A stretch of 64,000 nt of DNA, from assembly GCA_010093515.1 (NCBI GenBank), contig MU001674.1:110246-174245 (forward strand). Reading direction: 5' to 3'. Origin of the DNA: Lineolata rhizophorae (Eukaryota > Ascomycota > Dothideomycetes > Lineolatales > Lineolataceae). How positions within the stretch are numbered: the stretch's first letter is position 1; each line of letters starts with the position of its first letter. Under the pieces are notes generated by a model, which saw only the letters and a program-made list of their open reading frames with translations, did not search any database and was not told where the DNA came from. Positions 55,187 through 56,828 of the stretch are shown here, one piece after another. Both the position numbers and the translations under genes were made by a program.

Positions 55187-55381
55187 CCGCGTCCGACCCG
55201 AACAAGCGTCAACGTGTTCGCCCCAGCAGCCTTCCGTCGGGTAGCCTCGCATACGGTGCGCGCTGCCGGAGCGGCAGCCTTCAAGCAGCGGCACTCGGCC
55301 TTTGCGGGGCTCTTCCCTGCCACCGTTTCCGCCGCTCCTCTCGACCGCGCCCCCATACTTCCCGCAATACGATTGAGAACG
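55187..55381 (+). other. In-frame open extension of thioredoxin reductase resembling a mitochondrial presequence
   Basis: The reading frame of thioredoxin reductase exon 1 is open without interruption for 65 codons before its ATG. A GTG at 55214-55216 has A at -3. From there the 56 residues read VFAPAAFRRVASHTVRAAG and so on to LRT. They include seven Arg, one Lys, one Asp and many Ala, Ser and Thr, with an amphipathic-looking start: the composition of a matrix-targeting sequence. No ATG precedes it in frame or within 600 bases in any frame. Translation from a near-cognate codon would give a longer isoform. This is inference from sequence. Confidence 0.4.
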
Positions 55382-56828
55382 ATGCATTCCAAACTCGTCA
55401 GTAAGTTGTTCCCGCGAACGCGACTCGGTTGTTGGCGTGTGCATGGCGAGCTAACTCGCGCGGCGTTCCAGTCATTGGGTATGTGGGACCTCCCGCCTTG
55501 CCCCGCCATCGTCGGCTTCAATATTCCGCCTTGCGCGGAAGCACGCGAGCCATCTTCTCGGGCAAATGGTGACTGACACAATTTTTCCTTTGTAGCTCCG
55601 GCCCTGCCGGGCACACCGCAGGAATCTACGCTGCTCGCGCCGACCTAACTCGTAAGTCCCGCGTGGAACAAATTGGACCGTGCGAACGTGCTGACAGGCG
55701 GATAAGCTGTGATGTACGAGGGCTTCCTAGCGCTTGGAATCGCGGCCGGCGGTCAATTAACAACCACCGACGAGGTTGAGAATTTTCCCGGCTTCACCAA
55801 GATTCAAGGCTCGACTCTGATGGTTGGTTCCGCCGTAGTCCGACTCATGAAGTCGATTCGACGATACTGATCGCATCGAACAGGAGCAAATGCGCGAGCA
55901 ATCCGAAGCAGCTGGGACCGAGATTATCACCCAGACAGTCGCAAAGGTGGACTTAAAATCTCGGCCGTTCAAGTACTGGCTGCATCCCATGGGCGACGAC
56001 AGCGAGATAGAGGAGGAAACGCATACGGCGGACGCCGTAATCATCGCGACTGGTGCCAAAGCCCGCCGTCTCGATCTGCCCGGCGAGGACCAGTACTGGG
56101 GCAACGGGGTCAGCGCGTGTGCGGTCTGTGATGGTTCCCTGCCAATATTCCGCAACCAACACCTCGTTGTGATCGGCGGCGGCGATTCGGCGGTCGAGGA
56201 GGCTATCTATCTGACCAAGAAAGCGAGCAAAGTTTCTGTGCTTGTCCGAAGGGACCGCCTTCGCGCAAGCAGGACAAACGCAAGACGCTTGACGACAAAC
56301 CCGAAAGTTGAGATCAAATACAATACCGTCGCGACCGCGATCAAGGGCGATCCGAAAGCGAATGGCCTCATGACTAGCTTGATGGTTAAGAACGTCCAGA
56401 CAGGCGAGGTCAAAGAGATGGAGGCCAGGGGTCTCTTTTACGCCGTCGGTCACGAGCCTGCAACGGCGCTGTTTAAGGGCCAGCTAGACATGGACGAGGA
56501 TGGCTATCTGATAACTGAGCCCGGTCGCGGCCTCACAAACATCGAGGGTGTGTTCGCGGCAGGCGATGTCCAGGACAAGAAGTACAGGCAGGCTGTGACG
56601 AGTGCTGGTATGTGATGAAGTCTATCAGCTCCTGCAGGTTCATGGGTTTGGAATCTCAATGCTGACGAAACTATGCTAGGCTCTGGTTGTATTGCGGCGC
56701 TAGAAGCCGAACGCTGGTTGGCTGAGCAGGACGAGGGAGTCGAAAACGAATTGGAGAAGGAAAACCAAGCGGAAAAGTCCCAGGTCAATGGGGTGGTGCC
56801 TGAATATCGTTCGAACCCTCTCCTCTAA
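55382..56828 (+). CDS. trr1: Thioredoxin reductase (NADPH)
   Basis: Six exons: 55382-55400, 55472-55478, 55596-55651, 55707-55822, 55884-56607 and 56680-56828, giving 356 residues from the first ATG. The low-molecular-weight flavoenzyme passes electrons from NADPH to thioredoxin. The FAD motif [17 protein letters not shown] is built from exons 1-3; [16 protein letters not shown] follows; the redox-active CAVCDG is in [15 protein letters not shown]; the NADPH motif is [12 protein letters not shown]; and [14 protein letters not shown] FAD contact reads [19 protein letters not shown]. Exon 2 is only seven bases, yet it supplies the conserved Ile-Gly. Intron 4 has the weak donor GTTGGT. The C-terminus is extended and charged ([17 protein letters not shown]). 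An upstream in-frame extension is listed separately. Confidence 0.93.

Follow-up and report, generated by a model that had tools for sequence, protein, structure and literature searches.

A candidate mitochondrial isoform of thioredoxin reductase, initiated at a non-AUG codon, in the fungus Lineolata rhizophorae

Could the single thioredoxin reductase (TrxR) gene found in Lineolata rhizophorae, trr1, serve both the cytosol and the mitochondria by initiating part of its translation at a near-cognate codon upstream of the AUG? A preliminary description of the locus had proposed such an isoform. Here we consider trr1 within a window of 64,000 nucleotides of contig MU001674.1, together with the rest of the thioredoxin system and several tRNA synthetase genes of the same genome. 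Positions without a contig or stretch name are those of the window, and all trr1 features lie on its plus strand.

Six exons (55382..55400, 55472..55478, 55596..55651, 55707..55822, 55884..56607 and 56680..56828, the last including the stop codon) join in our spliced model to encode 356 amino acids without an internal stop. Exon 1 starts at the AUG and encodes MHSKLV, which is bridged to the downstream protein by exon 2, a 7-nt microexon (TCATTGG) with introns on both sides. These two flanking introns measure 71 and 117 nt. In a profile search the protein scored 373.5 bits against TIGR01292 (cut-off 343.45) over residues 4-321, exon 5 contains the CxxC redox motif CAVC, and the alignment to TrxR chains in the PDB begins at residue 1. 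By profile score and motif, the trr1 product is a low-molecular-weight, fungal-type thioredoxin reductase.

The frame of exon 1 is open for 65 codons before the AUG (55187..55381), directly following an in-frame TAG at 55184..55186, as the preliminary description had stated. Thus trr1 possesses the layout that near-cognate dual targeting calls for, an open, in-frame and AUG-less extension ahead of the cytosolic AUG. The candidate start put forward earlier is the GTG at 55214..55216 (gtcaacGTGttc), which has A at -3 and T rather than G at +4. The peptide of 56 residues that would begin there holds seven Arg, one Lys and one Asp, with RR at positions 8-9, in agreement with the earlier counts. 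The A at -3 is likewise correct, but the claim that this GTG is the first start met by scanning ribosomes does not hold if near-cognate codons are counted, since ACG, CTG and TTG codons come before it. An ACG and a GTG in tandem at 55253..55258 are alternative candidates; initiation there would still leave a basic extension of 42-43 residues, so the exact near-cognate start of trr1 is not fixed. We rate GTG 55214 itself as less probable than a non-AUG mitochondrial TrxR in general.

How much does the composition of this extension say? One alternative sees in the upstream frame nothing more than a C-rich 5′ leader of the usual kind, open by chance, with only the AUG form being made and the resemblance to a presequence following from base composition. 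We consider this account a real possibility, although we lean somewhat against it. Dinucleotide shuffling fits it well: among 5000 shuffles of 54701-55381, 25% stay open for 65 codons (P(open) 0.25). When the 168-nt extension itself was shuffled 20000 times, the 7429 open shuffles had a mean net charge of +6.5, and the observed +7 was reached by 49% of them. At most one acidic residue occurred in 39% of these open shuffles, and the helical moment of the trr1 extension was reached in 27% of them and in 31% of codon permutations; 10% of the open shuffles did at least as well as trr1 on charge, acid count and moment at once. Moreover, the same frame further up, at 54701-55048 in the promoter region, likewise gives an Arg-rich, acid-poor peptide.

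Leaders of other genes point the same way. We compared leader frames in nine genes of this genome, using up to 56 codons before each AUG; the names TXNL1-like, Grx3/4-like and thioredoxin-like are our own reading of the translations. The trr1 frame (65 codons open) has eight basic residues, one acidic residue and a moment of 0.458. Similar charges are found in the leaders of a TXNL1-like gene (54 codons open, six basic, one acidic, moment 0.33), a Grx3/4-like gene (89 codons, eight basic, two acidic, moment 0.505) and a degenerate thioredoxin-like gene (107 codons, eight basic, none acidic, moment 0.405), whose proteins we take to act outside mitochondria. The helical moment of trr1 is equalled, and indeed exceeded, only in the Grx3/4-like leader, which weakens these cytosolic-type leaders as controls. 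The leader of a second peroxiredoxin is unlike that of trr1 (26 codons open, three basic, none acidic, moment 0.285). Judged against both the shuffles and the cytosolic-type leaders, the trr1 extension has no presequence features beyond those of its base composition. Its presequence look can be put down to a leader that is C-rich and A-poor, and the earlier reading of this composition as evidence of a matrix-targeting presequence falls away, its features being at chance level in the shuffles and its charge common to cytosolic-type leaders.

Codon usage and RNA structure in the extension are also compatible with a chance leader. Scored against a codon table built from 27 long open reading frames, picked by length rather than curated as genes, frame 0 of the extension reaches -0.16 per codon (the other two frames: -0.33 and -0.20), a value exceeded by 91% of 216 coding windows (mean 0.04). 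This score is not coding-like, though the N-terminus of an AUG-started peroxiredoxin lies lower still, at -0.24, and the measure therefore lacks power. The RNA fold of 55214-55340 gave a z of -0.15, and a search of 52000-58500 against Rfam returned no match at the gathering score.

The one unusual property of the trr1 leader is its lack of ATG (P about 0.01), and this speaks against a chance origin. No ATG occurs in any frame in 54707-55381, bearing out the earlier observation; the nearest ones upstream are at 54701 and 54704, and the next is that of trr1 at 55382. Shuffles predict 4.05 ATGs in these 675 nt (P 0.006) and 3.6 in the last 600 nt before the AUG (P 0.01), where again none is present. 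A TATA-like element, TATAAG, at 54992..54997 is the single plus-strand match to TATAWR between 51310 and 60307, and it would set transcription starts 5′ of GTG 55214. Over the whole window and both strands, TATAWR occurs 76 times, against 44 expected in shuffles.

A second alternative is that TrxR reaches mitochondria by another route: through an alternative promoter or an AUG exon far upstream, through a weak internal signal in the AUG form, or from a second gene that is unassembled or was undetected. We regard this as improbable. There is no GTRNGT splice donor in 54551-55381, just two GC-type matches, so an upstream trr1 exon is not visible within that span. Genome searches also found no second TrxR. 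A protein search with exon 5 of trr1 yielded two scored candidates, trr1 itself and a different flavoprotein at 15 bits, and a TIGR01292 search returned trr1 followed by other flavoproteins at no more than 65 bits (cut-off 343.45). A search with the Pyr_redox_2 profile likewise turned up no second TrxR near the cut-off. Typing of nine other stretches with NCBIfam placed one over its cut-off, as a glutamate synthase small subunit; below cut-off, glutathione reductase, CoA-disulphide reductase and nitrite reductase are among the best matches. The typing left aside four rows that had no loci (two on contig C11 and two at C1:1370034-1371131). Two TrxR-like stretches, C1:1025768-1026711 and C7:371674, were rejected as a second TrxR. 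For the first, typed at C1:1026178-1026711, TIGR01292 was the best NCBIfam match but reached just 35.6 bits (cut-off 343.45); the second scored 24.7 bits.

A separate mitochondrial TrxR gene, which the preliminary description had held to be incompatible with its proposal, was therefore not found in the 48-contig assembly. The searches ran exon by exon on unspliced sequence with only the best candidates scored, and the assembly could be incomplete, which leaves this absence short of proof and lends the alternative route some weight. Further afield, 319 of 371 stretches in genome_contigs encode a relative; the best 80 of the 319 are labelled bacterial, and no fungal relative was found among these 80. 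The closest TrxR among those best 80 is in JAOUOA010000223.1 (labelled Spirochaetia), at 56% identity. In viral_contigs, none of ten stretches encodes a relative.

Yeasts offer precedents for another import route as well. According to one report (PMC2754438), the mitochondrial TrxR of S. cerevisiae is a separate one, and KLLA0E21605g of K. lactis, a proven TrxR highly similar to yeast Trr1 and Trr2 alike, carries a predicted mitochondrial signal of 29 residues. The same report mentions TrxR activity in both fractions as unpublished data and a second, weakly similar sequence annotated TRR1, and leaves undecided whether K. lactis has one gene or two (PMC2754438). As a single proven TrxR with a predicted mitochondrial signal, KLLA0E21605g is comparable to the trr1 proposed here, and differs in that its signal lies inside the annotated protein.

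A genome search with PF00085 turned up 14 stretches distributed over nine places, and by active site and length we read C7:619983-620442 as a classical thioredoxin, the sole one found among these matches. The remaining places look like protein disulphide isomerases (PDIs), a Grx3/4-like protein, a PUL-domain protein (its PUL domain confirmed by search), a TXNL1-like protein and a degenerate protein. A search of the genome with the thioredoxin protein returned nine stretches: two belong to that gene, and the rest score no more than 33.6 bits.

In the thioredoxin gene (positions 1213-1936 of stretch L110, contig C7), an in-frame upstream AUG in a weak context, with T at -3 (CCTTTCATGT), precedes a strong AUG that has A at -3 (GCCACTATGA). 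The 87 intervening residues include 13 basic and no acidic ones and end in RRSFSAT, with RSFSA as a cleavage-like motif. In 20000 shuffles of this extension, 7107 stayed open, of which 1.5% matched the charge and 0.25% the charge and motif together. The extension appears presequence-like, and the thioredoxin looks dual-targeted. A peroxiredoxin that we read as the 1-Cys type (PF10417, 46.1 bits) has a presequence-like N-terminus, MASLFYRAAPRALNTGLRAAARPNCSAVRRPAVLTPLLRRSLATPAA, beginning at the AUG GCAAAAATGG; this start was picked by look, and it is preceded, at distances of 119-195 nt, by further ATGs, of which one is in frame. Mitochondria of L. rhizophorae therefore probably hold a thioredoxin and a client, and a mitochondrial reductase is to be expected. 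That a single TrxR was found, yet the thioredoxin looks dual-targeted and the peroxiredoxin N-terminus resembles a presequence, weighs against a trr1 leader open merely by chance.

Several tRNA synthetase genes show related start arrangements. GlyRS, for which one gene was found, has a weak AUG followed by a strong one (T, then A, at -3; positions 1114-1468 of stretch L122), as does HisRS (1199-1352 of L128), which gave one main match, under the family cut-off because it is split. The charge of the HisRS extension was reached by 11.6% of 3436 open shuffles and is not beyond chance. AlaRS, again with one gene found, offers a parallel to trr1: the 617 nt preceding its AUG (693-1310 of L120, on contig C5 upstream of the window) are free of ATG in all frames, and at L120 1097 an ACG well placed by its A at -3 and its G at +4 starts a presequence-like peptide, TAPLAAAVPRSAAATVVPLARHFFRFSSASPAANA, whose composition is as little proof of targeting as that of trr1. 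The open frame extends further up, to in-frame ATGs at L120 659 and 674, which weakens the parallel; if transcription begins that far upstream, a long AlaRS form may start at an AUG.

We also counted ATGs in the 600 nt before the AUG. The five dual-type genes have five in total against about 19 expected (TrxR 0, thioredoxin 1, AlaRS 0, GlyRS 1, HisRS 3), and seven comparison genes have 44 against about 49 expected (TXNL1-like 7, Grx3/4-like 6, thioredoxin-like 4, the second peroxiredoxin, at L115, 3, the peroxiredoxin at L114 15, and two PDIs 4 and 5). Genes and length were chosen by hand and post hoc, with ValRS set aside for its unreadable N-terminal exons, and single-gene P values overlap between the groups (HisRS 0.16, L115 0.05, one PDI 0.08), making the contrast suggestive only.

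That non-AUG starts give rise to organelle isoforms in fungi is established. The yeast tRNA synthetase genes ALA1 and GRS1 produce near-cognate mitochondrial isoforms. As in our proposal for trr1, one gene of this type gives a cytosolic form from the AUG and a mitochondrial form from an upstream in-frame near-cognate codon, the difference being that trr1 encodes a redox enzyme, for which the near-cognate start and the import are proposals. Near-cognate AlaRS starts are described in S. pombe, S. cerevisiae and C. albicans, and the AlaRS layout of the present genome resembles them (PMC7049704). S. cerevisiae Gpx3 is, like TrxR, a thiol-redox enzyme, and has a mitochondrial form from a non-AUG codon; unlike the trr1 proposal, this form is backed by experiment, with an extension of 18 residues and a destination in the intermembrane space (PMC5368413). 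In Neurospora cpc-1, near-cognate N-terminal extensions are reported for 100 homologues, and four near-cognates initiate in vitro (PMC5487733). The likeness to trr1 lies in the use of in-frame near-cognates for N-terminal extensions in filamentous fungi; cpc-1 differs in being a transcription regulator whose extension is no targeting signal. U. maydis PGD likewise owes its peroxisomal isoform to a cryptic targeting signal that lies in the 5′ leader and is read through a non-AUG start, as we propose for trr1; this isoform differs in destination, in its conserved motif and in its experimental demonstration (PMC7214817). In the open-licence literature searched, we found no report of a filamentous fungus that makes a TrxR isoform from a non-AUG start.

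Together, these observations are compatible with the following model. Most ribosomes would start at AUG 55382 and produce cytosolic TrxR, and a minority would probably start at an in-frame near-cognate codon (GTG 55214, or the ACG or GTG at 55253-55258) in the ATG-free leader. The latter would add an Arg-rich, acid-poor peptide of 42-56 residues and direct the protein to the mitochondrial matrix, where it could serve the mitochondrial form of thioredoxin and the peroxiredoxin. The use of a near-cognate codon, the import and the joint action of the three proteins are what we infer here. A single TrxR found, a dual-type thioredoxin, a presequence-like peroxiredoxin N-terminus and the AlaRS ACG make a mitochondrial TrxR form plausible. 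The argument from the peptide fails its control, but the other members of the thioredoxin system lend the idea more strength than could be known when the preliminary description was made. The dual-isoform interpretation of the preliminary description thus gains support from genome context and loses its peptide argument to chance. The weakened AlaRS parallel and the weakened cytosolic controls pull in opposite directions and leave our estimate unchanged: that trr1 makes a near-cognate mitochondrial TrxR isoform is, to us, an evenly balanced proposition. A broader reading, which we put forward tentatively and think rather unlikely, is that one thioredoxin and one reductase are common to cytosol and mitochondria through relaxed start selection, by a weak AUG in thioredoxin and a near-cognate codon in the reductase, alongside several tRNA synthetases.

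A caution applies to GC-rich fungal leaders: chance is expected to leave an Arg/Ala-rich frame open ahead of the AUG, and such a frame is by itself no evidence of targeting. If the proposed isoform is real, it would explain how one TrxR gene supplies two compartments in a fungus, and would link mitochondrial redox supply to how strictly start codons are chosen. If the system is moreover shared in the broader sense, the stringency of start-codon selection would set mitochondrial redox supply and protein-synthesis capacity together.
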